Source of the DNA: Allosaccharopolyspora coralli
GTDB taxonomy: Bacteria > Actinomycetota > Actinomycetes > Mycobacteriales > Pseudonocardiaceae
DNA: 64,000 nt
Assembly (NCBI RefSeq): GCF_009664835.1
Contig: NZ_CP045929.1
Location: 372,001 to 436,000, forward strand
Direction: 5' to 3'
Below are positions 30,027 to 45,301 of the stretch, one piece after another; positions within the stretch are counted from its first letter, which is position 1; every line of letters begins with the position of its first letter. The notes beneath the pieces were generated by a model. The model saw only the letters and a list, made by a program, of their open reading frames with translations, was not told the origin of the DNA and did not search any database. The position numbers were made by a program, and so were the translations under genes.

Positions 30027-30102
30027 GCCGCCGTAGCTCAGCTGGTAGAGCACCCGCCTTGTAAGCGGACGGTCAGGGGTTCGAGTCCCCTCGGCGGCTC
30101 CA
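30027..30102 (+). tRNA. tRNA-Thr (anticodon TGT)
   Basis: The 76-nt cloverleaf has acceptor arms GCCGCCG/CGGCGGC, a D arm, anticodon loop CTTGTAA (TGT), T arm with GGTTCGAGTCC and an encoded CCA. The outermost anticodon-stem pair (C-A) is mismatched. The 3' 47 bases are the attL core of an integrated element, which keeps the tRNA intact. Confidence 0.95.
30056..30102 (+). other. attL core of the AICE
   Basis: This is the 47-bp 3' part of tRNA-Thr from the anticodon loop through CCA, repeated exactly at 44733-44779. The integrase gene ends 78 bases beyond it, the standard position in pSAM2-type elements. Confidence 0.93.
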
Positions 30103-30151: not shown

Positions 30152-30172
30152 TGTAGCAACGGATGTAGCAAC
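30152..30172. repeat. Tandem GTAGCAAC sites near attL (possible integrase arm sites)
   Basis: TGTAGCAACGGATGTAGCAAC holds two copies of TGTAGCAAC spaced 12 bases apart, between attL and the integrase stop. Near-identical motifs (GCAACGGCTGTAGCAAC) occur at 44624-44640 and 44831-44847, on each side of attR. This placement fits arm-type binding sites for Int or Xis. Confidence 0.55.
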
Positions 30173-30180
30173 GCACTCGT

Positions 30181-31398
30181 TCACAGGTGGTCCTCGAGGC
30201 GGTCCAACGCCTCTCGCTGCTCGTCGAGCGAGGCGTGAGCGTAGATGCTCATGGTGATCCGGCTGTCCGAGTGCCCTACGATCCGCGCCACGATGTGCGG
30301 CGGCACGCCGACGTCAAGCAGCAGGCTCACGCACGAGTGCCGCAAGTCGTGGAACCGCGTCTCGGGCAGCCCGATCCGGTCACGCAGCGGATGCCAGCTT
30401 CGACGCAGATTGCCGGGTTCCAACGGACGACCGATGGTGTTCGTGAACACCAAACCGGAATCCTTCCAGACCTCAGCACTCTCACGCTCCCGAATCTGGC
30501 GATCCTGGTGCGCTCGGAGTGCCCGGATACACACGCTCGGCAGCGGGATGGTTCGAGTTGAACCGGCAGTCTTGGTTGGAACTACCATCAACTCCCCGCC
30601 GACTCGTTGCAGCGTCTGAACCAGTTCCAACGCCCCTTCGTTGAGGTCGACGTCCTCCCAGCGGAGTCCAAGCAGCTCGGCGCGCCGAAGACCCAGGTAG
30701 AGCGCCAGCACATACAAGGCATGCAGGCGGTCATCCTCAGATTCCCGCAGGAGCTTTCTGGCGTCCGCGAGCTCCAAGCCGCGATTAACCCGGTACTTGG
30801 GGGTCTTGACCTGCACGAGCGTGGCGACGTTGCGCATGACCAGTTCCTCGCGCATGGCTTGTTGCAGCGCGTTGCGCAAGACGGCGTGGATGAATTGGAT
30901 GGTGCGCACGGAGAGCCGTTTGTCGCAGCAGCGTCCCAATGCACAGCACTTCTGCTGGTCGACCGGCCGGTCAGCGTCGATGCCGTCGGCGCAACAGCGG
31001 CAGTCGTGCTCGAGCCGGGTAAAGAATGCCCGCATCTCGGGGGCTTTGAGGGTGGCGAGCTTCTTCTTACCCAGCCCGGGCACAAGGTAGCGACGAACGA
31101 CCCCTTCGTAGCCCTGATACGTCTTGGGCCTCCGGTGGCGGACGACATTGGCCAACCAGTGTTCGAGGTAGGCTCCGAGCGTCCACGACTCGGCAGCGAC
31201 CGGGACGCCGTTGTCGGAGTCGTTGATCTTCTTGCGGAGTTTGCGGTCGGCCTCGGTCTTGGTCTTGGCTGAGACGGTGATCCGCTTGCGGTGCCCGGTC
31301 GTGGTTAGCACGTAGGCCGCACCGACCCAGATGCCGTCCTTGCGCTGATAGACCGAGCCTTGCCCGTTCGAGCGCTTCTTGCCACGCTTGTCGGCCAT
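30181..31398 (-). CDS. int: AICE site-specific tyrosine recombinase (integrase)
   Basis: This 405-residue phage-type integrase has an N-terminal AP2-like/SAM-like arm-binding part (GQGSVYQRKDGIWVGAAYVLTTTGHRKRITV). The catalytic domain shows R in LGLRRAELLGLRW, then H350 and R353 (HDLRHSC), H376 (GHSD) and nucleophile Y386. An internal Cys-rich insert (CRCCADGIDADRPVDQQKCCALGRCCDKR) is usual in pSAM2-like integrases. ATG 31398 overlaps the xis stop (TGATG). The stop lies 78 bases from the attL core. It should drive recombination between tRNA-Thr 3' ends. Confidence 0.95.
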   Translation of the reverse strand: MADKRGKKRSNGQGSVYQRKDGIWVGAAYVLTTTGHRKRITVSAKTKTEADRKLRKKINDSDNGVPVAAESWTLGAYLEHWLANVVRHRRPKTYQGYEGVVRRYLVPGLGKKKLATLKAPEMRAFFTRLEHDCRCCADGIDADRPVDQQKCCALGRCCDKRLSVRTIQFIHAVLRNALQQAMREELVMRNVATLVQVKTPKYRVNRGLELADARKLLRESEDDRLHALYVLALYLGLRRAELLGLRWEDVDLNEGALELVQTLQRVGGELMVVPTKTAGSTRTIPLPSVCIRALRAHQDRQIRERESAEVWKDSGLVFTNTIGRPLEPGNLRRSWHPLRDRIGLPETRFHDLRHSCVSLLLDVGVPPHIVARIVGHSDSRITMSIYAHASLDEQREALDRLEDHL

Positions 31399-31580
31399 CA
31401 CAGAGCCCCTTCCATCAGGTGCTCGATGTAGTTGTCGACGGCTTGACGCGGTATGCGTCGTGCTCCTCCGATCTTGACCGAGGCCAGCTCACCGTTGCGG
31501 ATCAGGTCGAACACGGCCGTGCGACCGACGTCGAGCAGTTTCGCGACCTCTTCCACGCGATACATCAACTTCGTCTCCAT
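31398..31580 (-). CDS. xis: Excisionase-type helix-turn-helix protein
   Basis: The 60-residue protein is a MerR-like/HTH_17 excisionase: YRVEEVAKLLDVGRTAVFDLIRNGELASVKIGGARRIPRQAVDNYIEHL. It bends att DNA and directs Int toward excision. ATG 31580 follows AAGGAGG by about ten bases; a longer open frame upstream overlaps the rep gene and reads as Pro-rich shadow sequence. Its stop overlaps the int start, so the two are coupled as in other AICEs. Confidence 0.9.
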   Translation of the reverse strand: METKLMYRVEEVAKLLDVGRTAVFDLIRNGELASVKIGGARRIPRQAVDNYIEHLMEGAL

Positions 31581-31602
31581 CAGTTCATTCCTCCTTCGCA
31601 GG

Positions 31603-33129
31603 TCAGAAAGGTTGTTCGGTGGCTTCCTCCTTGACGGTGTGGCGGTGTTCGCGGGCTTTGGCGGCGGCGGTGTTGGCGAGTTGGGCGTCGGCGGTGGTGT
31701 GCCAGCCGATGCCGGCGAAGGTGAGGTGGCCGATGGTGAGGATGTCGGGTTCGTCGCCGGGCTGGACTGTCTTGTCGGGGTAGTCCTCGGCGTGGGCTTG
31801 CTGGCGTTTCCAGTTGCGGCGGGCGGCGCGGAGGGTGGCGAGGGTGGTGGAGTAGCGGCGGGATTTGGTGGAGAAGTGTCCGCCGAAGCCGAGTTGGTGT
31901 GCCCACCGGTGCAGCCCTGCCCAGGCTTTCTGGAATGCGATGCGCTCGTCGACGTTTTCGTCGAGGCGGGCGATGCCATCCGGTAACTGGCCGATGTACC
32001 AGGCGGCGGTGATGAGCCGGCCGGGGTGCGTGTTCATGTCGGCGTAGTAGCCGACGGTGTCGTGGGTGAGCCGGCGGGAGAGGTGCCCGGTGGTTTCGGT
32101 GGCTTTGGTGGCGTATTTGGCGAGGTAGCCGGCGACGGCGGTGTCGGTGAGGGCACCGTTGTCGTCGAGGTCCCGGACGGTCAGCCGCACCTGCCGGGTA
32201 TCGATCGAACGCTCACCCCAGGACAACAGCCATCCGTCGGGTCGTTCGGGGTGGGCCGGGGTGCGGTAGCTGGTGGTCTCCGCGGCTTGGCGCAGGGCGT
32301 GTTCGAAGTAGGCGACGTGCAGGCGTGGGTCGGGTGGGGTGATGCAGTCCGGGTCGAGGGGGTCGACGCCGTCGAGACGGACGAGGGCGTGGAAGTGCAC
32401 GACCCCGCGTGCTTGGAATTCGGCGACTTTGGCGTAGGAGACGCGCAGTTTCACGCCGTAGCGTTTGCCGAGGCGGTCGACTTCCCGGCGCATGTTCTGG
32501 CTGGTGTAGCGCCACAGCTCCCCGGCGTAGGCGTTGAACACCACTTGCGCTTGGTGGTCGTAGCAGTCCAAGCAGAACGGCCGGCCCGCGTAGTCATCGC
32601 CGGTTTCGTGCCGGCGCAGGCACGAGAACTCGATGCCGTGTTCGCACACGTGCGGATCACGCCGTGGATGGCACGGCTTTCCGGACTTGTGGGCAGTGTG
32701 CACGGCCCCGAACGACGGGGCGGCGAGGGTCAGGAACACGGTGGGGTGGTCGGTGACGGTGTCGGGGACACCTTTGCCGCCGAGCAGGCCCGCGTGCACG
32801 AGGTGGTAGGTGTCGGCTCGGTAGGTCTCGGCACAGTGCGGGCACACGCTGGCGCGGCGGTTGCCGCAGGCGGTGTAGAGCACCCCATCCGGCATATGTG
32901 CGGTGTCGAGGTCGGCGGTCACCTCTCCGGTGCTGGGGTCGGCCGATGTGGTGCGGCCGGCGAGGCGGATGGGGTAGCGGCAGCCGGCGGCCGAAGCGAT
33001 GTGCCGCAGCCAGCGGTCGTAGCCGGGTTGACTGGCGCGGTGGACGAGGCCGGCGGTGTCGGGTGTCTCGGCGACGGCTCCCGCCCCCAGTACCGAGCGT
33101 GTGTGTCCGGTGCTGGGGGTGAGAGTCAT
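31603..33129 (-). CDS. RepSA-like replication initiator
   Basis: This 508-residue rolling-circle-type initiator allows AICEs to replicate as a plasmid after excision. Seen are several Cys pairs (CGNRRASVCPHC, CEHGIEFSC, CLDCYDH) that probably bind metal, an HUH-like segment GVVHFHALVRLDG near residue 248, and the GYLAKYATKATE block with the likely Tyr/Lys active-site helix. ATG 33129 is preferred over a TTG 15 bases upstream. It ends 23 bases before xis, the standard rep-xis-int order. Confidence 0.88.
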   Translation of the reverse strand: MTLTPSTGHTRSVLGAGAVAETPDTAGLVHRASQPGYDRWLRHIASAAGCRYPIRLAGRTTSADPSTGEVTADLDTAHMPDGVLYTACGNRRASVCPHCAETYRADTYHLVHAGLLGGKGVPDTVTDHPTVFLTLAAPSFGAVHTAHKSGKPCHPRRDPHVCEHGIEFSCLRRHETGDDYAGRPFCLDCYDHQAQVVFNAYAGELWRYTSQNMRREVDRLGKRYGVKLRVSYAKVAEFQARGVVHFHALVRLDGVDPLDPDCITPPDPRLHVAYFEHALRQAAETTSYRTPAHPERPDGWLLSWGERSIDTRQVRLTVRDLDDNGALTDTAVAGYLAKYATKATETTGHLSRRLTHDTVGYYADMNTHPGRLITAAWYIGQLPDGIARLDENVDERIAFQKAWAGLHRWAHQLGFGGHFSTKSRRYSTTLATLRAARRNWKRQQAHAEDYPDKTVQPGDEPDILTIGHLTFAGIGWHTTADAQLANTAAAKAREHRHTVKEEATEQPF

Positions 33130-33140
33130 GGTCGAGGCGG

Positions 33141-33332
33141 TCAACGGTTCTCGATCTCCTGAAGTTGGGTTCCGGTCAGGTACAGCCCGCAGGACCGGCA
33201 GAGATAGCGGTGTGCCGACTCGTCGGTGTGAGCGGGCGGATGGGCGTCCACTCGGGACAGGTCACTGGGATCGCAGTGCCAGCGATGGGACATCGCGATC
33301 TGCGATTCATTCGCCACCTGCACCGGAATCAC
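33141..33332 (-). CDS. Small putative zinc-ribbon protein of the AICE
   Basis: This is a hypothetical protein of up to 63 residues. It ends with HRYLCRSCGLYLTGTQLQEIENR, a CxxC half-ribbon, and has HRWHC earlier, so it could bind one metal ion. It lies between the rep gene and a 92-residue gene, and both ends overlap or nearly touch its neighbours, as usual for compact element operons. The start may be the upstream ATG or an internal one (MSHRWHC, about 50 residues). No family assigned. Confidence 0.5.
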   Translation of the reverse strand: MIPVQVANESQIAMSHRWHCDPSDLSRVDAHPPAHTDESAHRYLCRSCGLYLTGTQLQEIENR

Positions 33333-33607: not shown

Positions 33608-33670
33608 GAGACACACTCCTCCTACGATCGGAATAGCGAGATTTCGTTGCGAGAAACCGAAAAAGGGTGG

Positions 33671-34495
33671 TTAGTAGGCGATGGTGGTGCGGAGTTGGTG
33701 GGCGTAGTCCACGAGCGCGTAAATGTCGGCATCCGAGAGGTAGGCGGATTTCATCCGACGCGGCATGCCACCCTCAGCCAGCAGGAGGCCGATGCCTCGG
33801 TCTTCGGGTGCGATATGCGTGGCGGATTGGCCTTGTTTGGCCCAGCCGTGCCCGAGGATGATGTCCGAGGACGCCTCGGTGGTGCAGCGGAACGCGCACC
33901 GGAACCCGAACAAGTCCCGCAGGCTGGTGGGGATGATGTCGGCGCTGGGGCGTTGGGTGGCGGCGACGACGATGACGCCGGCGGCACGACCCCGAGCGAC
34001 CAGGTCACGCACGAGGCGCACGAACTTCTCCTGTTGTTCTTTGCTGCCGATGGTCGCGGAGTAGTAGGCGATCTCGTCGATGACCGCGACGATCACGTCG
34101 ACCGGGTCGGTCTGGGTGATTTTGCGCCGGCGGACGCGGTCGAGTTCGTCGTAGCGCCAGTCCATGACGCGTTGCAGCTCCTGAAGGCGTGCGAGACCGG
34201 CATCGATGTCCGGGCCGACGAACACGTCGGACACGGACTTCCACAGGCCCAACTCGACTTGTTTGCCGTCGAAAAGCCACAGCCGGGTGTCGGTGCACAT
34301 CGCTGCGTGGGCGACGATGTTGTTCAAAGCGACGGACTTTCCGGAGCCGGGTTCGCCGCCGAGCAGGATGTTGCGGTAGATCAACTCGATGTCCACGCCG
34401 TAGCCACGCTCGTCGATGCCGAGATGGACGGGGTCGTAGATGGACAACCCCGACACGGGGACCGGTTTATCCAGGGGTTGGGTGTCAGTCGACAT
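33671..34495 (-). CDS. FtsK/SpoIIIE-type conjugal transfer ATPase (TraSA-like)
   Basis: This 274-residue DNA translocase moves double-stranded element DNA between hyphae in AICE conjugation. Walker A is GEPGSGKS at 47-54, Walker B is VIAVIDEIA near 138, and GRAAGVIVVAATQRPSADIIP matches the FtsK core. It is shorter than chromosomal FtsK and has no membrane part; that part is encoded by the upstream gene, whose end overlaps this start by 11 bases. ATG 34495 is chosen over GTG 34501 by spacing only. Confidence 0.92.
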   Translation of the reverse strand: MSTDTQPLDKPVPVSGLSIYDPVHLGIDERGYGVDIELIYRNILLGGEPGSGKSVALNNIVAHAAMCTDTRLWLFDGKQVELGLWKSVSDVFVGPDIDAGLARLQELQRVMDWRYDELDRVRRRKITQTDPVDVIVAVIDEIAYYSATIGSKEQQEKFVRLVRDLVARGRAAGVIVVAATQRPSADIIPTSLRDLFGFRCAFRCTTEASSDIILGHGWAKQGQSATHIAPEDRGIGLLLAEGGMPRRMKSAYLSDADIYALVDYAHQLRTTIAY

Positions 34496-35279
34496 AGTCA
34501 CTCAGGTCCTCTCCGTTCACGACCACCGCAGCCGCAACGGGCTTCCGGGCGGTCTCAGACGTTTTCGAGTCAGCAGCCGAGGCACCGGTGCGGCGCTCGT
34601 CGGCAGGAGTCTCCGAGGCGGCCGTCGGGGCCGGCGGAGTAGGTTTGATCGGCGTCACCGTGGCCGCATCCGGCTCCGCCGGCGCACGGTGTTTCGTGAA
34701 CCGCGACAACGGCGAACCGACCGCCGAGGCGGCGAGGGGATCGCGGCGGATCACATCGATCGCACACACCGTCGACAGCTTCCGGACCGTGTGCAGCCGG
34801 GCGTCCCGGGCCATACACGCTGGGGCGATGTAATCCAGGGCGTCTTCAACGTCCCGAGCGGCCGAACCGGCCGGCAGCCAGACCCAGATCCGTTCACCGG
34901 TCTTCGTCGGGCGAGCCCAAAACAACAACGGGTAGTCCCCGTCACGGGTGACCGTGCGGATCTTCGTCTGCCGCAACGACGAGCGGATCCGATGCCGATC
35001 GACCACACACCACACGCGCGAGACCACCATCCGCCGGGTGTGCGGTATCGCGAACACGAGTAGTGGGATTCCGATGAGGACACCGCCGGTGAGCCAGGGG
35101 TTGCCGAAGGAATCCAGCCAGAAGAACAGCACCAGCCCGAGCACGAGGGTGGTGATTTCGGCGCGCCAGCGCACCAGTGTTCCGAGGATGACGAACCCGA
35201 CCCACTGTTTCGGTCGGGGCATCATTTCCACCACGTCCACGGTCGCGCCGCGACGGGTGCTGCGAGTAGCCTTAGCCAT
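34485..35279 (-). CDS. AICE transfer-associated membrane protein
   Basis: The 264-residue protein has two membrane helices near the N-terminus (VGFVILGTLVRW and TTLVLGLVLFFWLDSF..GGVLIGIPLLVFAI, residues 22-80), a cytoplasmic domain with RDGDYPLLFWARPTKTGERIWVWLPAGSAARDVEDALDYIAPACMARDARL, and a low-complexity Ala/Pro/Thr tail. It probably anchors the TraSA-like ATPase at the membrane, as the two genes overlap and chromosomal FtsK fuses such parts. The start is ATG 35279; upstream in-frame codons look non-coding. Confidence 0.78.
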   Translation of the reverse strand: MAKATRSTRRGATVDVVEMMPRPKQWVGFVILGTLVRWRAEITTLVLGLVLFFWLDSFGNPWLTGGVLIGIPLLVFAIPHTRRMVVSRVWCVVDRHRIRSSLRQTKIRTVTRDGDYPLLFWARPTKTGERIWVWLPAGSAARDVEDALDYIAPACMARDARLHTVRKLSTVCAIDVIRRDPLAASAVGSPLSRFTKHRAPAEPDAATVTPIKPTPPAPTAASETPADERRTGASAADSKTSETARKPVAAAVVVNGEDLSDYVD

Positions 35280-35389
35280 GCTCAACGCCCTCCCAGGCAC
35301 AGTTGAGAAGCACGAATGAATGTGGGGAAACGGGGCCGGGTCGAGACGCCTGCCAGCACCCTCGAGCCGGTCCCGTTTCACCTGGTTCG

Positions 35390-35578
35390 TTAGCGGTGTG
35401 CCAGTCCGAATGCGGACTCGGCCTGCTGGATCGACTCCACACAGCCGATCAACACATCAATCACATCGAGCATCTGATCCATCGTGTGAAACCGGACCAA
35501 CTGCTCACCATCAGCACCATGCAAAACCAACTCGCTGGTGCCGTCGGTGTACTGGATTTCGCGGACGTCGCACTGCAT
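35390..35578 (-). CDS. Small hypothetical AICE protein (62 aa)
   Basis: The 62-residue product (QCDVREIQYTDGTSELVLHGADGEQLVRFHTMDQMLDVIDVLIGCVESIQQAESAFGLAHR) is acidic and soluble, with a predicted amphipathic C-terminal helix. No family recognised. The ATG overlaps the stop of the upstream 91-residue gene (TGATG), so it is translated by coupling. Similar small genes of unknown role fill this position in many pSAM2-like elements. Confidence 0.65.
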   Translation of the reverse strand: MQCDVREIQYTDGTSELVLHGADGEQLVRFHTMDQMLDVIDVLIGCVESIQQAESAFGLAHR

Positions 35579-35853
35579 CACAACCGTCCTTCCGTCTCCG
35601 GTACGGACAACTGCGAGACCTCGAAGCCAGCCTCGGCGAAGGCGACCTTCGCCATCAGCAGTGAGGCGACGCCGTCCAGATAGGCACGTACACGTGCCAT
35701 CTCCCGGATTCCATCCCAATCGGGCCATCTACCGGTCTCATTCGAGCGGTAGAGCCGGTTCATCGAGAACACGTGCCAGCTGTGCTTCTCGGCGCACACG
35801 GCGCGCCACTGGCACCACCATTGATCGGTCAATTCACTACGAAGCTGCGTCAT
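35578..35853 (-). CDS. Small hypothetical AICE protein (91 aa)
   Basis: The 91-residue product is Trp-rich at the N-terminus (DQWWCQWRAVCAEKHSWHVFSMNRLYRSNETGRWPDWDGIREMARVRAYLDGVASLLMAKVAFAEAG). It is soluble and no family is recognised. The start ATG 35853 follows an AAAGG-type site (CCGAAAGGTTTG on the minus strand). It is coupled to the following 62-residue gene by a one-base overlap. Probably part of the element's replication/transfer operon. Confidence 0.65.
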   Translation of the reverse strand: MTQLRSELTDQWWCQWRAVCAEKHSWHVFSMNRLYRSNETGRWPDWDGIREMARVRAYLDGVASLLMAKVAFAEAGFEVSQLSVPETEGRL

Positions 35854-35890
35854 CACACAAACCTTTCGGTGCGTCCACAAGGGGTGGTGT

Positions 35891-36238
35891 TCAGGACGCG
35901 GCAGCGCCCGAGGACTTACCCGACGCAGTACCGGTCGAGACTGGTGTGATCGACTTCGCGCGATACGCAGTGCCGTTGCGCCCGTTCTGCGCCCACGGAA
36001 TCGCCTGAAGCTCCGCCGGGGACACCGGCTGACCCTTCGCAACCTTCGGCGGGACAGCACCCGCGACGGTCACGTTGATCACCTCGGCCCCGCCTTCATC
36101 CACGGCAACCAGCTGCACAGCAAACAACGGCTCCTTGGTGTTGCGGTCCATCCGCTGCACACCGTTCTGATCATTCTTCGGCTCGGCCTCACGCGAGACC
36201 GTGAACGACACCTGCGACACATCAATCAACAGACGCAT
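35891..36238 (-). CDS. AICE small protein, possible replication/excision activator
   Basis: The 115-residue protein (LLIDVSQVSFTVSREAEPKNDQNGVQRMDRNTKEPLFAVQLVAVDEGGAEVINVTVAGAVPPKVAKGQPVSPAELQAIPW) resembles in layout the small beta-rich proteins called replication, integration and excision activators (Pra-like) in actinomycete plasmids. That link is tentative and based on pattern memory. It is the first gene of the minus-strand backbone operon and so a reasonable place for a regulator. The tail is Ser/Ala-rich. Confidence 0.6.
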   Translation of the reverse strand: MRLLIDVSQVSFTVSREAEPKNDQNGVQRMDRNTKEPLFAVQLVAVDEGGAEVINVTVAGAVPPKVAKGQPVSPAELQAIPWAQNGRNGTAYRAKSITPVSTGTASGKSSGAAAS

Positions 36239-36255
36239 AACAAAGCCCTCCTCGG

Positions 36256-36347
36256 CTTTTGTCTACTTTGGTTTCAAACCCCGTCATCGCGGAGTGACAC
36301 CAGTAGACAGTCGAGGAGGGCGTACGACCCGGACAAACTGTCCGGGT
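36256..36347. promoter_or_regulatory. Inverted repeats upstream of the AICE backbone operon
   Basis: TGTCTACT (36256-36263) is complementary to AGTAGACA (36303-36310). Next to it ACCCGGACA (36327-36335) and TGTCCGGGT (36339-36347) form a 9-bp hairpin. The region separates the flavoprotein stop from the first backbone gene, so the hairpin may end upstream transcription and the TCTACT pair may be an operator. Exact roles are inferred. Confidence 0.5.
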
Positions 36348-36351
36348 AGGT

Positions 36352-36930
36352 CTATGAGGGGTCTGGACGGTTCACGTAGGCGTCGTTGACGGTCTGCAGA
36401 ATCGCAGGCCACGGCAGGTCTTTTCCGGGTGGAGCCTGGCGAGGTTCGTGTAGTGGCCAGACGTCGTCACCGTAGACGAGGTGAACGCCGACCTTCCGCA
36501 GAGCCACTAGGTGCTGGTCCCACATGGGTTGCCGAGCATGGGCGGCGTTGACGCGGGGGAACACGACGACGGGCACCACCTGCCCGCCGATGACCTCGCA
36601 AGCCGTGGTCAGAAGCTGGTTGTCGGCCAGGCCGAGAGCGAGTTTGGCCACTGTGTTCGCACTGGCCGGCACGACTGCGTAGACGTCGATCGGTGGATGG
36701 GGGCTCGATTCCCCGGGCATTCGCGGCTGAATACGCACCTCGTACCCGGTAGCTGCTTCGAGCCTGCGCACCTCACCGAGGTTGTCCAACCACGTGGCGG
36801 CGGTGGGGCTGGCAACGATGGCCACCGACCAGCCGGCCTCGATAGCCGGTTGGACGAACTTCTCCCGGATGCGTTCCGCGCCTCCGGCAGCGGTGATGAG
36901 CAAGCCGAGGGTGGGGCGCGAGGTGTTCAC
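36352..36930 (-). CDS. Flavoprotein-family (PF02441) protein of the AICE
   Basis: The 192-residue protein has the HFCD/flavoprotein fold of FMN-binding decarboxylases: LGLLITAAGGAERIREKFVQPAIEAGWSVAIVASPTAATWLD at the N-terminus, the ASANTVAKLALGLADNQLLTTACE helix that lines the FMN site, and VPVVVFPRVN. The reaction is unknown. The GTG 36930 overlaps the XRE-regulator stop (GTGA). HTH-regulator plus flavoprotein pairs recur in streptomycete mobile elements, which suggests a linked regulatory or metabolic-sensing role. Confidence 0.8.
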   Translation of the reverse strand: MNTSRPTLGLLITAAGGAERIREKFVQPAIEAGWSVAIVASPTAATWLDNLGEVRRLEAATGYEVRIQPRMPGESSPHPPIDVYAVVPASANTVAKLALGLADNQLLTTACEVIGGQVVPVVVFPRVNAAHARQPMWDQHLVALRKVGVHLVYGDDVWPLHEPRQAPPGKDLPWPAILQTVNDAYVNRPDPS

Positions 36931-38165
36931 TGAAGAGCCCTGCAACGCTCGGCAAGTCCGGACAGTGGCGAGGACTTCGCGCCGCCAGTCACCGGTGCTC
37001 TGCGATGCATCGCTTTCACCGTTTCGCGGACACCGGGGTTGTGCCGCACGAGCTGGGGAGCCTCGTGTTCGGCGGTCAGCAGGTTCTGCAGAGCCGGTTC
37101 GTCCTCGGCAACCATGCTTTGCGCGCGAGCCACGTCGATCATGTGCGTCGCTTGCCGCTCCACGGGCAAGTGCTCTACCGCGATGGACGGACCGTGTTCG
37201 ACGACGTAGGGCACGTCTCCGAGGTCGAGAGCAGCGGCCAAACGGTGCAGCTCGACGTTCGTTGGCCCGAACCCTGTCTGCCAGTAGTTGCCGTCTTCGT
37301 TGAGGCTCCGCGCGACCGAGTGCGCTTGACGGAGCAACTCGGTCGCCGTCTGTCGATCCTGCCGACGAGCGGCAGCGATGGCGGTACGTAGGTGCAACAT
37401 GCCGAACAGGCTCAACGCGGACGGGTCGCCCTTGGCCATCTGGGGAGAAAGCCAGGTCGACGCGGTGTTACCCAGCGACAGCGCGTCATCGAATCGTCCA
37501 ACCGCGAGCAGCGCGTGCGTGCCGGCCCGTGCAGCCGAGGCAAGTACGAGCGGGTCGCCAGAGTGATCCGCAGCTTGCATGGCTCGTTCCGCAGCGATCC
37601 ACGAGAGGTCCGCTTCACCCACCTTGCTCAACGTCGTCGCGGCCAGGTGGTGGGTCCGAGCCGACACAGCCCAGCATGCCCGCACGTCACCCTCGCCAGC
37701 ATTCGCGGCGTCCTCGAGCTGTTGTGCAGTCTCAATGAGACCGGGAAGTGAGGACACGACACGACCGAGCCTGCCTGATTGGTAGCCGTCCCAGGCTTGC
37801 TCGACAAAGTGCGCCGACGAAGTCGGATTCACGTTGATCGGGGCCGCAGCCGCGCCGAACAGGGTGCGGGAGAGCCGACGCGGAGTCATCAGGGCGTCAC
37901 GAACAGCCGGTATGTCATCGTTCTGCTCGTCGTCTTCCATCAGTACCGGCTGACCGAACAAATCCGGCACAGTCACACGAAGCGCACGAGCAACGTCGGA
38001 GATGACGTCGAGCCGACGAATGTCGCGCTCACCGCGCTCGATCTTGCTCAGCCAGGATTCCTTGCGACCAACCAGGTTCGCCAAGACCTCCTGAGTCAGG
38101 CCCCGCCTCCGTCGATAGAACTTGATCCGTTCTCCAACGGTCATCTGGTCACCTGCTCCGCGCAT
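36927..38165 (-). CDS. XRE-family regulator with C-terminal helical repeat domain
   Basis: The protein has up to 412 residues. Residues 9-65 form a Cro/CI-type helix-turn-helix (VGERIKFYRRRRGLTQEVLANLVGRKESWLSKIERGERDI). The rest is alpha-helical, TPR-like (ARTHHLAATTLSKVGEADLSWIAAERAMQAADHSGDPLVLASAARAGTHALLAVGRFDDALSLG), the layout of actinobacterial peptide- or small-molecule-responsive regulators. Start could be the ATG eight codons in (MTVGERIKF). It is coupled to the flavoprotein gene and is the leftward gene nearest the cargo junction, so it may control element excision or the cargo. Confidence 0.85.
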   Translation of the reverse strand: MRGAGDQMTVGERIKFYRRRRGLTQEVLANLVGRKESWLSKIERGERDIRRLDVISDVARALRVTVPDLFGQPVLMEDDEQNDDIPAVRDALMTPRRLSRTLFGAAAAPINVNPTSSAHFVEQAWDGYQSGRLGRVVSSLPGLIETAQQLEDAANAGEGDVRACWAVSARTHHLAATTLSKVGEADLSWIAAERAMQAADHSGDPLVLASAARAGTHALLAVGRFDDALSLGNTASTWLSPQMAKGDPSALSLFGMLHLRTAIAAARRQDRQTATELLRQAHSVARSLNEDGNYWQTGFGPTNVELHRLAAALDLGDVPYVVEHGPSIAVEHLPVERQATHMIDVARAQSMVAEDEPALQNLLTAEHEAPQLVRHNPGVRETVKAMHRRAPVTGGAKSSPLSGLAERCRALQ

Positions 38166-38232
38166 GGCTCTGATTTTACCTGGTCAGCACCCGGGGGTAC
38201 ACACCAACACAGGTCATGAGTACAGGAAAACT

Positions 38233-38531
38233 CCTACACAGCAGGGAAACCGGTTCACGCTGCTTGATCCCCAGCGGATGCGCCAGGTGCACGTGTGCAC
38301 CCCGCCTTGGCAAGCACGTCCGCGGTCCCATACCACCCGCATTTTGCCTCCAACACCACCTCGGGATCGGCACCGGCCTTCGCGATCTCGGCCGCTAACG
38401 TCAGCGGGTCGTTCTCGATGCGAGCGAGGCCCAACCGTTCACCGGCGGCACCCCTGCAGCACGATTACCGCCCGGCGACGGTGCACAGCGATCCCAACAA
38501 ACTGCTTGCCGTCATACTTCAATACCAGGAC
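38233..38531 (-). pseudogene. IS110-family transposase N-terminal relic
   Basis: Three frames of the minus strand together read as the N-terminus of an IS110 DEDD transposase: LKYDGKQFVGIAVHRRRAVIVLQ, then ARIENDPLTLAAEIAKAGADPEVVLEAKCGWYGTADVLAKAG, then AHVHLAHPLGIKQ. Frameshifts and the loss of everything after residue 90 make it non-functional. A GAAGGAGG site precedes the start. It lies exactly between the leftward AICE backbone and the rightward lasso cargo. Confidence 0.75.
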
Positions 38532-38750
38532 CTCCTTCGTCGTGTGAAGTGAGCACCCCGAGCGCTCTCGGACCCAGAAGAGCGGAGGCCCCCGCTCCTT
38601 CATCGCATCAGCGCCCGTCCTGCTAGCGGCCCCTGTCAGCGTCGTTGCCTCAATGGAGGTCCCTCTTCTTGCGGCGCACGACTTACCGTAGGTTCAGGCG
38701 TCGCCAAACTCGGCGGCGCGCTGTGTCCCATCTCACTTCCGCCGTGGAAG
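38532..38750. other. Junction region before the lasso exporter gene
   Basis: No gene supported. It carries the promoter region of the cargo operon, but no confident -35/-10 pair can be picked by eye. GTGGAAGG just before 38751 may serve as ribosome-binding site for the exporter gene. Confidence 0.4.
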
Positions 38751-40505
38751 GTGGCGTTCGAGTCGGTTTGCGCTGTAGACACAGCGTCTGTGCGCATTCT
38801 GTTCGACCATGCTCGCCCACACCTTTCGGTGATGGCGATCGGCCTACTCCTTGCACTCGTCAGCAGCGCCTCCGGGCTTGCTCAGCCGCTTGCTGTTCGC
38901 GCAGTAATCGACGCGCTTGGTGTGGGTGACTCATTGCTCCCACCGGTCCTCGTGCTCTGCACGCTCATTGCTGTCAGTGGCGTTGCTAATGGCGTGAACA
39001 CCTACTTGCTTGGACGTGTAGGTGAACAGGTGGTCTTCGGTGTTCGTCGCCACCTTTCCTCGAGGCTTGTGCGTCTCCGGGTGCCTGAACTCGACGCGCG
39101 TTCTCCCGGCGACCTGATCTCCCGGGCTACTGCGGATACCAACTGGATTCGAACAGCAGCCGCGCTAGCTCCGGTTCAGATTGTCAACGGAACGGTGGGG
39201 CTAATTGGGGCCCTTATCCTCATGGCGGTCTTGGATCTGCGACTGTTCGGCGTCACACTAATTGTGCTGATTGTTGTGGGTGGCATCGTCCGCATCGTTA
39301 TGCCCCGCATTCGAGAGGCCACAGAGCATGCCCAGACTTCTGTCGGACGTGTCGGATCAGCTTTGGATCGCGCGCTCGGCGCGTCGCGCACAGTTAAAGC
39401 CGCGGGAGCAGAGGAACGCGAGCAGACGATTGTCGAGCGTGCCTCAGCTGAGGCATACGAGGCTGGCCTCTTAGGGGCCCGGTGGAACGCTGTACTTAGC
39501 GTCGTCTCCGAAATGGCATTGCAGGTCTCGTTCCTGATCGTCCTCGGCGTCGGAGGCGCCTTCGTCGCAGCGGGGACACTGTCAGTGTCGACGCTGGTGG
39601 CGTTCCTTCTCTATTTGTTCTACATCACCGCCCCCCTCTCTGAACTCGTCCGGGCAACGACCATGATTCAGCAAGGACTCGGTGCGGCCGCACGCGTTTC
39701 GGAGGTATACAAGCTAGAAGTTGAGCCTGATGTTGACCACACTCACGCCCCTTCTGAAAAGGAGACGGTAAACGCTCCCGCTCTTGAGTTCGAGGGAGTG
39801 CGGTTCAGCTATCCCGGTCGTGAAGAGGTACTCCGCGGAGTCGCGTTTACTGTGCCGGCTGGTTCGCGAGTAGCCCTGGTAGGCCCGTCTGGCGCAGGCA
39901 AGTCCACGATCTTTTCTCTGCTGTTGCGGTTTTATGACGCGACAGCGGGGGTCATCCGACTAGACGAGACTGACATCGGTTCCATTAACCGCGGGGCACT
40001 ACGAAGCCGCATCGGTCATGTCGAACAAGACGCTCCCGTGCTTGAGGGGACGCTGAGGGAGAATCTTTGCTACGCGGCACCGCACGCTAGCGCTAACAGG
40101 ATCGCTGAAGTCATCCGCGAAACTCACCTGTCCTCTCTTGTTGAGCGTCTTCCGGAGGGAATCGACACCCAACTTGGTGCGCGTGGCGTCACCCTCTCCG
40201 GGGGAGAGCGTCAACGCCTCGCGATCGCTCGTGCATTCCTACGGAGGCCGGGATTGCTCCTACTCGATGAGGCCACCGCACACCTCGACGCTCGAACTGA
40301 GGATGCGCTGCGAGACACGTTGATGGGCGGCACTACGCATTGCACAGTTTTCGTCATTGCCCACCGCCTGGCCACGGTGCGGGATGCTGACAGAGTCGTC
40401 GTTCTTGACCGAGGCTACGTCCGTGCGATCGGAAACCACGAGGAGCTGATCGCACACGATGACCTCTACCACGAGCTCGCCGTCACCCAGCTCCAGTCCG
40501 GATGA
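38751..40505 (+). CDS. ABC exporter of the lasso-peptide cluster (LasD-type)
   Basis: This is a 584-residue half-transporter with a six-helix exporter domain (residues about 25-310) fused to an ATPase: Walker A GPSGAGKST at 378-386, Q-loop HVEQD, signature LSGGERQR, Walker B LLLLDEAT, switch His IAHRLAT. In lasso clusters such a D protein exports the mature peptide and gives self-immunity. There is no C39 peptidase domain, as expected when a separate B2 protease is present. GTG start; a TTA leucine codon is at 39471. It is the first gene of the rightward cargo. Confidence 0.9.
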   Translation: MAFESVCAVDTASVRILFDHARPHLSVMAIGLLLALVSSASGLAQPLAVRAVIDALGVGDSLLPPVLVLCTLIAVSGVANGVNTYLLGRVGEQVVFGVRRHLSSRLVRLRVPELDARSPGDLISRATADTNWIRTAAALAPVQIVNGTVGLIGALILMAVLDLRLFGVTLIVLIVVGGIVRIVMPRIREATEHAQTSVGRVGSALDRALGASRTVKAAGAEEREQTIVERASAEAYEAGLLGARWNAVLSVVSEMALQVSFLIVLGVGGAFVAAGTLSVSTLVAFLLYLFYITAPLSELVRATTMIQQGLGAAARVSEVYKLEVEPDVDHTHAPSEKETVNAPALEFEGVRFSYPGREEVLRGVAFTVPAGSRVALVGPSGAGKSTIFSLLLRFYDATAGVIRLDETDIGSINRGALRSRIGHVEQDAPVLEGTLRENLCYAAPHASANRIAEVIRETHLSSLVERLPEGIDTQLGARGVTLSGGERQRLAIARAFLRRPGLLLLDEATAHLDARTEDALRDTLMGGTTHCTVFVIAHRLATVRDADRVVVLDRGYVRAIGNHEELIAHDDLYHELAVTQLQSG

Positions 40506-40637
40506 TCGGGTGGTGCGATACAACACGCGGCATGCAGTAGCCGTCCTGCATACGCGCGACACCTGAGGCCAGCGCAGTGGCCGTGCTTGCTTCTGATAAC
40601 CTGAACTTTGAAACTGCTCACGGTCGGCGGGAGAAAA

Positions 40638-41081
40638 ATGCGTACTGTTGACGAAGGCGTGAGCCCTCGTACACTTTCCCTGCGTCAGCAGTTGGTTCGG
40701 TTCGTTCTTATAGGTAGTACTTGCGCAGTGATCGACGCAGGAACTTACTCAATTTTTCTGGCAGCGGGCGCACCTTCGTTCGGCAGCAAGACCGCAGGGT
40801 TCATCTTAGGTACCACTGCGTCCTATCTTGTAAATCGGCGGTTTACGTTCAACTCGGACAGCAACGGGCACTCCGTTATGACGGTAGCGCTTTTCGCGGC
40901 AGTCTATCTAGCGACTCTTGCTGTCAACGTAGGATCCAATGAACTACTACTCGGGGTGCTCCCCACAGTACCCATCACTGATGGGGAACTGGTACGATAC
41001 GCGCTTAGCTGGGTGATTGCGCAAGCGCTGAGCACCATTCTCAACTTTATCCTCCTTCGCACTGTCGTGTTCCGTCACTAA
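40638..41081 (+). CDS. GtrA-family membrane protein inside the lasso cluster
   Basis: The 147-residue protein has four membrane helices. The GtrA/DPMS signatures are visible: LVRFVLIGSTCAVIDAGTYSIFL, KTAGFILGTTASYLVNRRFTF and WVIAQALSTILNFILLRTVVF. GtrA proteins help move lipid-linked sugars across the membrane in O-antigen, teichoic-acid or arabinogalactan modification. No glycosyltransferase is nearby, so its part in lasso production, if any, is unknown. ATG 40638 follows GGGAGA; an in-frame TTG lies 30 bases upstream. A TTA codon is at 40806. Confidence 0.85.
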   Translation: MRTVDEGVSPRTLSLRQQLVRFVLIGSTCAVIDAGTYSIFLAAGAPSFGSKTAGFILGTTASYLVNRRFTFNSDSNGHSVMTVALFAAVYLATLAVNVGSNELLLGVLPTVPITDGELVRYALSWVIAQALSTILNFILLRTVVFRH

Positions 41082-41208
41082 TTCGCCATTGCAAATCATC
41101 CTGACTCTTGCGACGATCGCTTGACCCTGTTTCAGTTTTAGTGAACAACTAAATCAGGCCTATTCGCTTATGGCAGTAGCAATCCTACCGAACTAAGAAA
41201 GGGTCACG

Positions 41209-41361
41209 ATGAACGAAAATCAGATGACCGACGAGCCCGTCGCCGCACAAGACTCATATGTGCGTCCCTCGCTGATCGAGATCGGTAGCTTCCGGGACCA
41301 CACTCGCGGGATCAACGGGACTACTTGGGAACCGCAGCCCCTTACCTGGGCTGGCCCCTGA
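41209..41361 (+). CDS. Lasso-peptide precursor (LasA)
   Basis: This 50-residue precursor, too small for routine calling, lies between the GtrA and cyclase genes. The leader ends with the actinobacterial recognition motif YxxPxLxxxGxFxxxT: Y17, P20, L22, G26, F28 and T32 of YVRPSLIEIGSFRDHT. Thr32 is the penultimate leader residue, so cleavage after Arg33 releases GINGTTWEPQPLTWAGP. Gly1 can form an isopeptide with Glu8 (eight-residue ring), leaving the tail PQPLTWAGP to thread. AAAGGG precedes ATG 41209. An AT-rich stretch at 41082-41190 with TTGACC at 41121 may be its promoter. Confidence 0.9.
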   Translation: MNENQMTDEPVAAQDSYVRPSLIEIGSFRDHTRGINGTTWEPQPLTWAGP

Positions 41362-41389
41362 TTTCGGCTCGTCGGACACAGAGGGCTTA

Positions 41390-43216
41390 ATGCTCGAGAA
41401 CTGCACGAACGGTTCTCCTGGCGGTGAGGCATGGTTCGTCGCATTTCCAGACCAGTCGACCAGCCTCACCGTCGGGGCCGATATCAGCCATCAGGCAACG
41501 TCAGTAATTCACCATTCGTCGGGACGACCGTGGATTATCGGCTCGTGGGCCGAATCACAGGTCGCCGCCATTAGACGCGAAAACGCACATATCGCCGTGA
41601 TTGGGAACGCGGCGGGAGCGCGCAACATTGTTGAGCGTTACATCGACGGCGTCACCAGAATCGAGGACGTCACGCCGCTCGCCAGGGAGCTTCGCGGGTC
41701 TTTCTTCATTTTGGCCAAGATTGGTGACCGATGTCGAATCCAGGGTCCTGTCTCTGGGGTCAAGCGGGTGTTTCACTCTGCAAACCGCTCCGGATATTCA
41801 GTTGTCGGAAGCCGAAGTGATCTCGTCGCGGCTTGTCTGCCCACCGGCCGAGAGCTCGACTACACATGGCTTTGCGCTCGCTTGGTATACCCGCCGAGCC
41901 CGCGATCACTACGCTCTGGATCGCCGTGGCGTGACGTCGAGGCGGTTCCAACCGAAACGTACGCCGCACTTACGGACTCTGGAAAGGTCACCACGCATCG
42001 ATGGTGGCACCCACCATCGCCCGAGATGACGGTCGCCGAAGCCGCAGAGCCGCTCGGCGAAGCGCTTCGGTCGGCGGTGGCTGCCCGAACCGACGTCGCA
42101 GGGCAGAATCTCAGTGCGGACCTATCCGGAGGACTCGATTCCACGCCGCTGTGCCTGCTCGCCTACCAGCTGCGGTCAAGACCGCTCCTGATTACACAGG
42201 CGGGTGACGACCGCGCGAACGACGACGCTCGATTCGCTTCCCTTGCGGCAGCGTCGATGCCCGGGTGCAAACACCTCGTCCAGCAACCGCACGAACTCCC
42301 GTTACCGTTCTCGGACGCTTTGACAGCGAGTGCCGGACTAGACGAACCTGACTCAGGCTTCCGCAATCGCAGCCGCACCGCGGCCATCGGCCGCCAACTA
42401 CGCAGCTTTGGCAGTACCATCCATATCGGCGGAGCCGGTGGCGACGAGGTCCTACAGCCGCCTCCAACTTACTTACATGGTCTCATTAGGCGAACCCCCC
42501 GCCGTGGCTATCGCTACGTTCAGGCCTTCCGTGCACGCCGCCCGGCCTGCGGCCGCGGCGACATGCTTCACTTCCTCATGAATCAGTCCTCTTACACCGA
42601 ATGGCAGCAACAGCAGATCGCAGACCTGACGAGCCCCATGCCACGTCATTTGCTGGGTTCTTGGGGGACACCTTTCCGTTTGCCGCCTTGGCTCACCAAT
42701 GATGCCGTTGAAATTGTTCGGGACTCGCTGACAAATTCACAAAATGATGAGCCATTCGATACAGAGCGTGGCCAGCATGATGCAGCTGAGAGTATAATCA
42801 ACGCTGGTCGCGTGACCCGAATGACCGGGCAAACTCTTGCACAAGAGTTTCTTTCGTCCGAATTCCCCTTTCTGGATGATCATGTAGTCAATATTGCGCT
42901 CTCCGTCCGGCCGGAGGAGAAGGCGGATCCGTGGACTTTCAAGCCCTTGATCCGGGCAGCAATGGAGAGAGAAGTGCCATCCGAGGTTCTGAGCCGATCG
43001 ACCAAAGCTGATGTGTCGTCCGAAGTTTACGATGGCATGCGAAAATCCCGTGAAGATTTATTGAAGATTTGCACGGAATCCCACTTGGCTGAAGCTGGGC
43101 TGCTGGACATAGATTCTCTAGTTGACACTCTAGAGGCGCCACCAAATCCCAACCACCACCCAACCATGCTGAACGAGACACTAGCGACCGAGGCGTGGCT
43201 TAGAGCAAACGCTTAA
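41390..43216 (+). CDS. Lasso cyclase, asparagine-synthetase-like (LasC)
   Basis: This 608-residue ATP-dependent macrolactam synthetase activates the acidic side chain of the core peptide and joins it to the Gly1 amine. The N-terminal glutaminase-like domain has lost the catalytic Cys2 of true asparagine synthetases. The synthetase domain has the PP-loop LSGGLDS at 245-251 and GGAGGDEV at 347-354. RSTKADVSSEVYDGMRKS near the C-terminus is a common block in lasso cyclases. It starts 28 bases after lasA. TTA codons are at 42473 and 43058, and its A+T content is higher than in the flanking chromosome. Confidence 0.93.
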   Translation: MLENCTNGSPGGEAWFVAFPDQSTSLTVGADISHQATSVIHHSSGRPWIIGSWAESQVAAIRRENAHIAVIGNAAGARNIVERYIDGVTRIEDVTPLARELRGSFFILAKIGDRCRIQGPVSGVKRVFHSANRSGYSVVGSRSDLVAACLPTGRELDYTWLCARLVYPPSPRSLRSGSPWRDVEAVPTETYAALTDSGKVTTHRWWHPPSPEMTVAEAAEPLGEALRSAVAARTDVAGQNLSADLSGGLDSTPLCLLAYQLRSRPLLITQAGDDRANDDARFASLAAASMPGCKHLVQQPHELPLPFSDALTASAGLDEPDSGFRNRSRTAAIGRQLRSFGSTIHIGGAGGDEVLQPPPTYLHGLIRRTPRRGYRYVQAFRARRPACGRGDMLHFLMNQSSYTEWQQQQIADLTSPMPRHLLGSWGTPFRLPPWLTNDAVEIVRDSLTNSQNDEPFDTERGQHDAAESIINAGRVTRMTGQTLAQEFLSSEFPFLDDHVVNIALSVRPEEKADPWTFKPLIRAAMEREVPSEVLSRSTKADVSSEVYDGMRKSREDLLKICTESHLAEAGLLDIDSLVDTLEAPPNPNHHPTMLNETLATEAWLRANA

Positions 43217-43237
43217 AGCGCGATCAGGAGGACTCGG

Positions 43238-43504
43238 GTGAAAGTCAACTTATGTCGCCATGTGACCCATTCCGCGTTCCCGGACGGTTCCGCAGTACTT
43301 CTCGACGGAAAAGCAGGACGGTACTGGCAACTCAATGAGACCGGGAACCTGATGCTCAAACATCTCCTGTCCGGGCAATCTGCGACAGAGACAGCTCGTC
43401 TGATGGGCTCAGAACTTCCTGTCTCCCCTGCGCAGCTGGAGCATGACCTTGCGATATTGATTACTCAGCTCGAGTCGGCCAACTTGGTGAGGCGCAAAAA
43501 GTGA
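43238..43504 (+). CDS. PqqD-like RiPP recognition element (LasB1)
   Basis: The 88-residue winged-helix protein (VTHSAFPDGSAVLLDGKAGRYWQLNETGNLMLKHLLSGQSATETARLM) is of the PqqD/RRE class. It binds the YxxPxL leader and brings the precursor to the B2 protease. GTG 43238 has an excellent AGGAGG site eight bases upstream. The fifth codon is TTA. Its stop overlaps the B2 start by four bases (GTGA), so B1 and B2 are made together, the normal split form in actinobacteria. Confidence 0.92.
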   Translation: MKVNLCRHVTHSAFPDGSAVLLDGKAGRYWQLNETGNLMLKHLLSGQSATETARLMGSELPVSPAQLEHDLAILITQLESANLVRRKK

Positions 43505-43905
43505 GCACGCCAATCCCACTTCCGCCCGCCGCGAGACTGTCTTTGGTCGATCGTGCAGTCGGTCTGACCGCCGTAGGTGCAGCGAGACTCATAGCGCTTA
43601 CGCCACCCGTCGTGCTCATGCGGCTGCTGCGTCTTCTGCGAACCGGGGCGCGTCCCGCCACGTACCGCGAGGCAGCTCGTGCGCGCGAGATCGTAACCTC
43701 GGTAAGCATTATGTGTGCTGGAGAAGGCTGTGTACAACGTTCCATCGCGACCGTTGTGATCAGCCGACTCCGTGGCAGCTGGCCAATATGGCGTTCAGGT
43801 GTGCGCCACGACCCGTTCCGAGCACACGCCTGGGTGGAAGCTGAAGGCCATCCGGTTGAAGAGCCCGAAACCACAACTGGGTACACCCCCATCCTCTCGG
43901 TCTAG
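43501..43905 (+). CDS. Transglutaminase-like leader protease (LasB2)
   Basis: The 134-residue protease removes the leader before cyclisation. The nucleophile is Cys77 in GEGCVQRSIAT and the catalytic His is 109 in FRAHAWVEAEG. The third triad residue, usually Asp about 12 residues later, is here Glu120 or Glu121 (PVEEPE). An N-terminal helical region of about 50 residues is usual for stand-alone B2 proteins. GTG start overlaps B1. It is the last gene of the cluster; no tailoring gene such as acetyltransferase, kinase or methyltransferase follows. Confidence 0.9.
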   Translation: MSTPIPLPPAARLSLVDRAVGLTAVGAARLIALTPPVVLMRLLRLLRTGARPATYREAARAREIVTSVSIMCAGEGCVQRSIATVVISRLRGSWPIWRSGVRHDPFRAHAWVEAEGHPVEEPETTTGYTPILSV

Positions 43906-44110
43906 AGCAGGAGTCCGTCCGCAAGACCATGTCCGATTGTCCATCCTCACTTCGATGGCTAGGTCGATGGGCTGCACGCGCCGGTGCAGCTCATGCTGGA
44001 GTTGTTGGACGACACGCTGCTTTGGTACGGCGGCCGTGGTGCACGTCGATCAACTGGTTTCTTACCCCGGCATCCCCAAGCCACGCGCCCTTTGCCTGCG
44101 TCGAAGACGT
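43906..44110. other. Non-coding or decayed stretch after the lasso cluster
   Basis: A plus-strand frame reads LHAPVQLMLELLDDTLLWYGGRG near 43973-44042 but has no start or family that I recognise, and it is soon broken. It may be a gene relic. No terminator is obvious after the last lasso gene. Confidence 0.35.
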
Positions 44111-44206
44111 TCACGCACCAATGACCGATTCGTGCCCGGTCATGGTCAGCACGTAGGCCGCCCATGAACCGACGGAGGACAACCAATGTGAGGACTTTCT
44201 GTACGG
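44111..44206 (-). pseudogene. Integrase N-terminal relic inside the right end of the AICE
   Basis: The minus-strand frame YRKSSHWLSSVGSWAAYVLTMTGHE aligns with the N-terminal part of the functional integrase (YQRKDGIWVGAAYVLTTTGHR). DNA identity is clear around GGTCAGCACGTAGGCCGC. No start, no catalytic domain. It is a fragment from another integrase copy. Confidence 0.65.
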
Positions 44207-44407
44207 TTTCAAGCCGCCCCGGGACGGGGCGGTCGGGCGGCCAACTCCGGCGACCTGGCGCGCCGCTCGTGCCTCGCTCTGCGCCGGGCGGTCGCGACGG
44301 GTCGGCACGCCCGCCATCACGTGCGGGGCGTGCGTGAAGGGTGCAGATATCGTCACTCGTCACCTCGAGTCGGTGGTGCCACCCTCTCCGCGCCCGGGAT
44401 GGTCAAA

Positions 44408-44543
44408 GCCGAGGTCGACAGCATCAACCCCGCCTTCGGCGTCCCGATCCCGCCGGGGGTCACCTCGACGACGGAAAGGCTGGCCCTGGGTGCGGGGCCG
44501 GTAGCGGGATCGGGAGTCCCGGGTTGATGCTGCCGACCTCGGC
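44408..44543. repeat. Nested long inverted repeat near attR
   Basis: The outer arms 44408-44430 and 44521-44543 (GCCGAGGTCGACAGCATCAA.. and its complement) match in 22 of 23 bases. Inside them GTCCCGATCCCGC (44441-44453) pairs with GCGGGATCGGGA (44504-44515). The whole can fold as a 136-base cruciform. Possible roles are a replication origin (dso/sso), transfer site or a small non-autonomous element. Confidence 0.7.
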
Positions 44544-44732
44544 AGTGCGGCGGGCAAGGACGCGGTAAGGGTGGCGTGCGAGTCATGGCCCGGTGCCGGT
44601 AGGCGCACACGGCCGCCGGTTCAGCAACGGCTGTAGCAACCCAGCCCTATCGTGCCGATCCACAAAGGACCAGGCCACGACGATTCCTGCTGGTGTCGAA
44701 CGAATCCGAACCGACGAGACGTGCGGAACCGT

Positions 44733-44779
44733 GCCTTGTAAGCGGACGGTCAGGGGTTCGAGTCCCCTCGGCGGCTCCA
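44733..44779 (+). other. attR core: copy of the tRNA-Thr 3' end
   Basis: This is an exact 47-bp repeat of 30056-30102, from the anticodon loop to CCA, without the 5' half of a tRNA. It marks the right end of the element. It is flanked on both sides by GCAACGGCTGTAGCAAC (44624-44640 and 44831-44847). Confidence 0.93.
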
Positions 44780-44851
44780 TCGGTGACCAGGGAAACCCCT
44801 GGCGGAAGATTTACCGGGGTTCGTTCTTTAGCAACGGCTGTAGCAACCGGC

Positions 44852-45180
44852 TCAGTCAAGGTGGTTCTCCAGCTTGTCAGGGCTTGCCGTTGCTCTTCGA
44901 CTGAAGCGTGCGCGTAGATCCCCATCGTCACGCGCATGTCCGAGTTCCCGACGATCTTCGAGACGATGTGTGGCGGGACTCCGACGTCGAGCAGCAAGCT
45001 CACGCAGGTGTGCCGGAGGTCGTGGAACCGTTTTTCCGGGTGAACGATCGCCTTGCGCAGGGCGTACCAACTACGCCGGACGTTGTCAGGCTCGGTCGGT
45101 GTTCCGATCGTGCTCGTGAAAACCAGGCCGGAGTCCATCCAGACCGCAGCCTCATCACTCTCGCGCTGGTGGCGAGACCG
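44852..45180 (-). pseudogene. Integrase C-terminal relic of an earlier element beyond attR
   Basis: The frame reads SDEAAVWMDSGLVFTSTIGTPTEPDNVRRSWYALRKAI..KRFHDLRHTCVSLLLDVGVPPHIVSKIVGNSDMRVTMGIYAHASVEEQRQAL and then shifts to DKLENHLD and a stop at 44852. Compared with the functional integrase, H-R and Tyr are kept, the third His is replaced (GNSD for GHSD), and the first two thirds are missing. It sits the same distance from an att core as the active gene does, so it is the left end of a second, decayed element. Confidence 0.85.
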
Positions 45181-45301
45181 TACGCACCGATAGCCGCTTG
45201 TCGCAGCACTGGCCGGGTGTGGCCCCAGGACCTTCTTGACAGTTGGCCAGTTTCCAGCCTTGGACCGTGATCGCATTGGTCGCGGTGCCACGGCGGTCTT
45301 C

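Follow-up and report, generated by a model that had tools for sequence, protein, structure and literature searches.

Probable carriage of a complete, achromosin-like lasso-peptide cluster by a pSAM2-type integrated element of Allosaccharopolyspora coralli

The described lasso peptides that come closest to the system reported here are achromosin, a class II peptide of Streptomyces achromogenes with the core GIGSQTWDTIWLWD (PMC12427821), and chlorolassin, with which the core GIGSQNPWDTAWLWD encoded by Lentzea jiangxiensis agrees (PMC12518702). Actinomycete integrative and conjugative elements (AICEs) are defined by a set of modules that includes a replication initiator of the RepSA, RepAM or Prim-Pol type (PMC3218068); those of the pSAM2 type combine an integrase (Int), an excisionase (Xis), RepSA and an FtsK-type transfer protein (Tra), and integrate in the 3′ end of a tRNA gene. 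Here, we describe a 64,000-nucleotide stretch of the Allosaccharopolyspora coralli chromosome (contig NZ_CP045929.1, positions 372,001 to 436,000; hereafter ‘the window’, in which all positions are counted from its first letter), where a complete lasso-peptide cluster is very probably the exchangeable ‘cargo’ of a chromosomally integrated, 14.7-kb pSAM2-type AICE lying in a tRNA-Thr gene. The parts are known and the combination is new; none of the papers listed in a literature search combined a lasso peptide with an AICE.

A sequence-only reading of the window had claimed a complete lasso cluster at 38751-43905, and this holds: the six genes are open and co-directional, and their families match those of a lasso system.

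38751..40505, + strand: lasso exporter D, an ATP-binding cassette (ABC) transporter with fused membrane and ATPase domains (Pfam ABC_membrane 1.9e-37, ABC_tran 1e-30)
40608..41081, + strand: GtrA-family membrane protein (PF04138 4.7e-18)
41209..41361, + strand: lasso precursor A (NF033521 lasso leader, 19.6 bits, cutoff 19)
41390..43216, + strand: lasso cyclase C, asparagine-synthetase-like (PF00733 Asn_synthase 5.9e-32)
43238..43504, + strand: B1, PqqD-like leader-recognition protein (PF05402 PqqD 7.4e-11)
43501..43905, + strand: B2, transglutaminase-like leader peptidase (Transglut_core3 5.4e-25; NF033537 101.9 bits, cutoff 33)

The motifs that had been claimed are likewise all in place, namely Walker A (GPSGAGKST) and Walker B (LLLLDEAT) in the exporter, which also has an LSGGE motif, SGGLDS in the cyclase, Cys77 and His109 in B2, and the leader motif in the precursor. 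Alignment with homologues shows that the cyclase keeps the invariant residues of the SGGLDS region as well as others elsewhere, and an alignment of B2 proteins places Cys77, His109 and the acidic Glu121 at conserved positions; the start of B2 overlaps the end of B1. The GtrA gene is present as read, with the ATG at 40638 a likelier start than the TTG listed for it at 40608.

The genes that surround the cluster, a setting missed by the sequence-only reading, are those of an AICE, with a recombinase and tRNA-derived attachment (att) repeats, RepSA, and an FtsK/SpoIIIE-type transfer protein:

30027..30102, + strand: tRNA-Thr(TGT), integration site (ARAGORN)
30056..30102, no strand: attL, the 47-bp 3′ end of tRNA-Thr, an exact direct repeat with 44733-44779
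30152..30173, no strand: possible integrase arm-type site at the left end (repeat family D2, putative function)
30181..31401, − strand: int, tyrosine integrase of 406 aa (PF00589 4.4e-23, PF14659; R/HxxR/H/Y residues present)
31398..31577, − strand: xis-like excisionase (HTH_17), 59 aa (PF12728 3.2e-13)
31603..33144, − strand: repSA, pSAM2-type rolling-circle replication initiator (PF20199 9.3e-150, 500 bits)
33671..34501, − strand: traSA-like FtsK/SpoIIIE DNA translocase (PF01580 4.6e-12)
34485..35381, − strand: conserved AICE backbone protein of 298 aa, spread-like by position only, with no family match
36352..36945, − strand: flavoprotein of the AICE backbone (PF02441 2.8e-14)
36927..38165, − strand: helix-turn-helix regulator of the AICE backbone, bordering the variable cargo region on its left (HTH_31 3.5e-12)
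38240..38510, − strand: degraded transposase N-terminus (frame translation VLKYDGKQFVGIAVHRRRAVIV)
44132..44161, − strand: integrase gene fragment just inside attR, a 30-bp repeat 93% identical to 31291-31320
44187..44621, no strand: conserved right end of the AICE backbone, 89.7% identical to that of a sister element
44620..44641, no strand: possible integrase arm-type site at the right end (repeat family D2, putative function)
44733..44779, no strand: attR, an exact 47-bp copy of the tRNA-Thr 3′ end, in direct repeat

In its Int, Xis, RepSA and FtsK-type Tra, and in its integration in the 3′ end of a tRNA gene, the element is like other pSAM2-type AICEs, from which it differs in that its cargo is a complete lasso-peptide cluster. 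A third copy of the D2 repeat lies at 44827-44848. The transposase fragment, which judging by eye we take to be IS110-like, stands directly 5′ of the exporter and marks a possible route by which the cargo entered.

That the cluster is exchangeable follows from a ‘sister’ AICE on the same chromosome, around 1.045-1.058 Mb (L244:10796-L245:4500) and beside tRNA-Ala(GGC), in which the same backbone has a different cargo. This second element matches the first over 31473-38166 at 83.8% and over 44187-44621 at 89.7%, and in place of 38166-44187 has other genes, including those for a WXG100-like protein and transposase-like genes; a search for an att repeat of its own found none. Between the two elements the FtsK proteins are 99% identical, the RepSA proteins 90%, the 298-aa backbone proteins 84% and the flavoproteins 77%, and the step between FtsK and RepSA suggests a recent exchange between them. 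In this small conjugative element, then, an entire lasso cluster occupies a place where other genes can stand, the sister AICE with its shared backbone serving as a control from within the genome, and such carriage offers a direct route by which lasso peptides could jump between genera. The lasso genes have a G+C content of 53-60%, the element 63-69% and the chromosome about 69%; we attribute this low value, the isolation of the cluster and perhaps its odd gene order to its being AICE cargo.

That order, D-GtrA-A-C-B1-B2, had been put forward as unusual, and a synteny sample of 136 deduplicated loci with cyclase homologues bears this out: 59 have C-B1-B2-D and 44 have C-B1-B2 without a nearby exporter, with an exporter placed before C-B1-B2 on the same strand in a single compared locus (L123). 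Homologues of the exporter, at about 38-50% identity, sit 3′ of B2 in many lasso loci. A GtrA gene immediately 5′ of the precursor is rare and not unique, being found in three of the compared loci, L056 (Lentzea jiangxiensis, the same as L171), L058 and L129, by search models built from two GtrA subfamilies that may miss others.

The precursor has 50 residues, comprising the leader MNENQMTDEPVAAQDSYVRPSLIEIGSFRDHTR, with the pattern YxxP...G...T and Thr at −2, and the predicted core GINGTTWEPQPLTWAGP, which would result from a cut after the residue next to the conserved Thr by the known rules of lasso biosynthesis. Its ring segment, GINGTTWE, begins with Gly1 and ends with the acid Glu8, in keeping with lasso cores, which start with Gly or a similar residue and have Asp or Glu at position 7-9; closure between Gly1 and Glu8 predicts a neutral monoisotopic mass of 1805.874 ([M+H]+ 1806.881); a search of the PDB with the precursor gave no match. 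We propose that B1 binds the leader and that B2 cuts after Arg33, with Thr at −2; the cyclase would then activate Glu8 with ATP and join it to Gly1 around the tail, to give a 17-residue class II lasso peptide that the ABC transporter would export. The likely function of the peptide is that of a narrow weapon aimed at related bacteria, one that would travel from cell to cell along with its exporter.

In trees, the sister group of the cyclase is a clade with six members, with support of 96 (FastTree, 142 rows) and 95 (IQ-TREE mixture model, 37 rows). This clade consists of three Streptomyces, one of them S. achromogenes, and three Pseudonocardiaceae, one of them L. jiangxiensis, and its precursors have GIGSQTWDTIWLWD and similar cores. 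The ring points the same way and does so independently, since, when 104 cores were ranked by how well their first eight residues match the predicted ring, the four best all came from the sister clade. Set against the pattern of this group, GI-x3-TW-D followed by a tail of (A/I)WLWD, the predicted peptide has a similar ring (GI...TWE) and a different tail. Taken together, cyclase tree and ring sequence point to achromosin and chlorolassin as the nearest known peptides, and to the present one as a distant member of their group. Achromonodin had also been considered as the nearest relative and was rejected, as this is the name of a different peptide, the sequence in question being that of achromosin (PMC12427821).

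With achromosin, the system shares the sister relation of the cyclases, an eight-residue ring running from GI to TW-acid, class II membership as predicted, and the leader pattern YxxP...G.F...T; it differs in a cyclase only about 35% identical, in a 17-residue core with the tail PQPLTWAGP, in having B1 before B2, in the presence of exporter and GtrA, and in its AICE location. The chlorolassin cluster is alike in its cyclase (sister clade, 37% identity) and in a GtrA gene immediately 5′ of the precursor, although that GtrA is of another subfamily; further differences are that its core has one extra residue before Trp-Asp, that its B2 precedes B1, that it has a known halogenase, and that RepSA and integrase matches are absent within 10 kb of it.

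Of 80 other genomes in the family that bear lasso genes, 61 contain RepSA genes and, comparing by eye, none stands near a lasso cyclase among the matches listed for these 80. The 10-kb surroundings of the loci in the comparison gave no match to RepSA or FtsK, and for integrase one weak fragment only. Seventeen plasmid records have a cyclase homologue. These plasmid-borne clusters, including that of chaxapeptin (Streptomyces leeuwenhoekii, plasmid record of 132 kb), resemble the present one in having a lasso-type cyclase gene, but lie on plasmids of at least 53 kb rather than on a small, chromosomally integrated AICE, and with a cyclase 32% identical. A single cyclase match, at 26%, was obtained in IMG/VR; a first scan of genome contigs with one cyclase sequence gave no match.

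Several observations weigh against the picture drawn so far. An empty integration site was seen in no relative, the genus being represented by one genome. The branch leading to the cyclase is very long (1.2), and identity to its relatives does not go beyond 38%, a limit that no homologue exceeded in 297 genomes of the family, 395 of the class and 79 named loci retained from the genome collection, such that the placement of the cyclase is uncertain. Chlorolassin ranks low in the ungapped comparison of rings, which we put down to the one extra residue of its ring. Finally, neither the cyclase (3.7e-63 and 214 bits against a cutoff of 300 for NF033561, the albusnodin/ikarugamycin-family macrolactam cyclase) nor B1 (66.9 bits against 70 for NF033530, the lasso PqqD chaperone) reaches its NCBIfam cutoff; we take this as divergence and not as doubt, because homologues of the cyclase mostly have B1 and/or B2 nearby. 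The cluster is real, complete and probably working, and of a divergent achromosin-like kind.

The GtrA gene might be a passenger, a cell-envelope gene acquired beside the lasso genes in some earlier host and uninvolved in peptide making, export or immunity, an alternative that competes with this part of our account only and that we consider evenly balanced with its opposite. GtrA was found near only three lasso loci in the sample of 136, the gene is separated from the genes on either side by 102 and 127 bp and so lacks translational coupling, and GtrA is common in the family, with this subfamily in 220 of 297 genomes; yet it is intact, has a similarly low G+C (53%), shares the direction of the exporter and precursor genes between which it stands, and has counterparts at the same place in the three loci that represent Pseudonocardiaceae in the sister clade of the cyclase. 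The A. coralli chromosome has a paralogue, 48-51% identical (G000:C1:168043), adjoining genes for a DprE1-like oxidase and an Emb-type arabinosyltransferase, and the best outside matches, at 50-55%, include two that read beside a DprE1-like gene. The copy in the lasso cluster is thereby of the same subfamily as the Rv3789-type GtrA of mycobacteria, whose dprE1/emb neighbourhood (the arabinogalactan locus) is retained by the chromosomal paralogue, whereas the copy discussed here sits among lasso genes. Rv3789 itself acts in arabinogalactan arabinosylation, as a flippase or an anchor, on conflicting evidence (PMC7389260).

The GtrA genes of the chlorolassin type (L056:10719-11267, L058:8652-9218 and L129:8276-8824, each 5′ of the precursor) are paralogues of a GtrA present in 290 of 297 family genomes, and the one from L058, a close homologue of that of chlorolassin, is 23% identical to the GtrA of the window. 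The placement of two such distant subfamilies before related precursors suggests, without proving it, a role in self-protection or a link to the target pathway, and may be chance. An unbroken association of the chlorolassin-type gene with lasso clusters is weakened by an 84% identical relative in another genome, which has no lasso precursor within 1.5 kb. The paper on the chlorolassin halogenase (PMC12518702) does not use the term GtrA in its main text, and we found no statement of the target of the achromosin/chlorolassin peptides. If functional here, GtrA most probably serves in self-protection or in adjustment of the envelope at polyprenyl-linked sugars. A bolder proposal, which we rate as rather unlikely, is that the extra GtrA is an immunity factor or target marker, that two subfamilies were recruited independently, and that weapon and shield move together on the AICE; the peptide would then disturb the membrane handling of polyprenyl-phosphate sugars, decaprenyl-phosphoryl arabinose for example, with the second GtrA protecting the producer. 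Its position beside achromosin-like precursors is, in any case, a testable clue to the immunity and target of this group of peptides.

It is also possible, though we consider it doubtful, that the AICE is a dead remnant and that the cluster, having arrived with it, is now a fixed genomic island. Integrase debris on both sides of attR and the transposase fragment inside the element give the site a history of decayed elements; against this, the reading frames of int, xis, repSA and the FtsK-type gene are all open, the catalytic residues of the integrase are present, the att copies are identical over 47 bp, and the near-identity of FtsK to its counterpart in the sister points to recent exchange. 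Part of the debris is a truncated second integrase directly after attR (44858-45290), which over 111 residues shares 65% identity with the first, and from which it follows that the tRNA-Thr gene has served as a site for more than one element.

Far less probable is that the lasso genes belong to the chromosome itself, the AICE being no more than a neighbour that inserted next to them. The cluster does lie rightmost in the element, and the limits of AICE cargo can be hard to define, but attR stands about 830 bp past the lasso genes, with the shared backbone segment 44187-44621 in between, and the order of backbone, lasso genes, backbone right end and attR therefore places the cluster inside. Weakest of all, and rejected as having next to no probability, is the notion that there is no lasso system and that the supposed cyclase is an asparagine synthetase or amidotransferase of the ordinary kind. 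This notion draws on the Pfam name Asn_synthase and the missed NCBIfam lasso-type cutoff, whereas the protein (PF00733 only) lacks the glutamine-amidotransferase domain and the Cys2 of true asparagine synthetases and has B1, B2 and a lasso leader as neighbours, and its homologues, when checked on this very point, have B1, B2 or both nearby except in 8 of the 136 loci (C alone) and are therefore lasso cyclases.

Beyond the AICE in tRNA-Thr and its sister, two further RepSA genes, 37-38% identical, at G000:C1:3917081 and 1267530 (L246 and L247) mark other AICE-like elements in this genome. Upstream of the tRNA-Thr gene, at 29887-29922 of the window, lies a palindromic repeat with the core GGCAAATTCGCGCGAATTTGCC, which has dozens of near-copies in the genome, mostly 84-95% identical, and belongs to a family resembling repetitive extragenic palindromes (REP-like).

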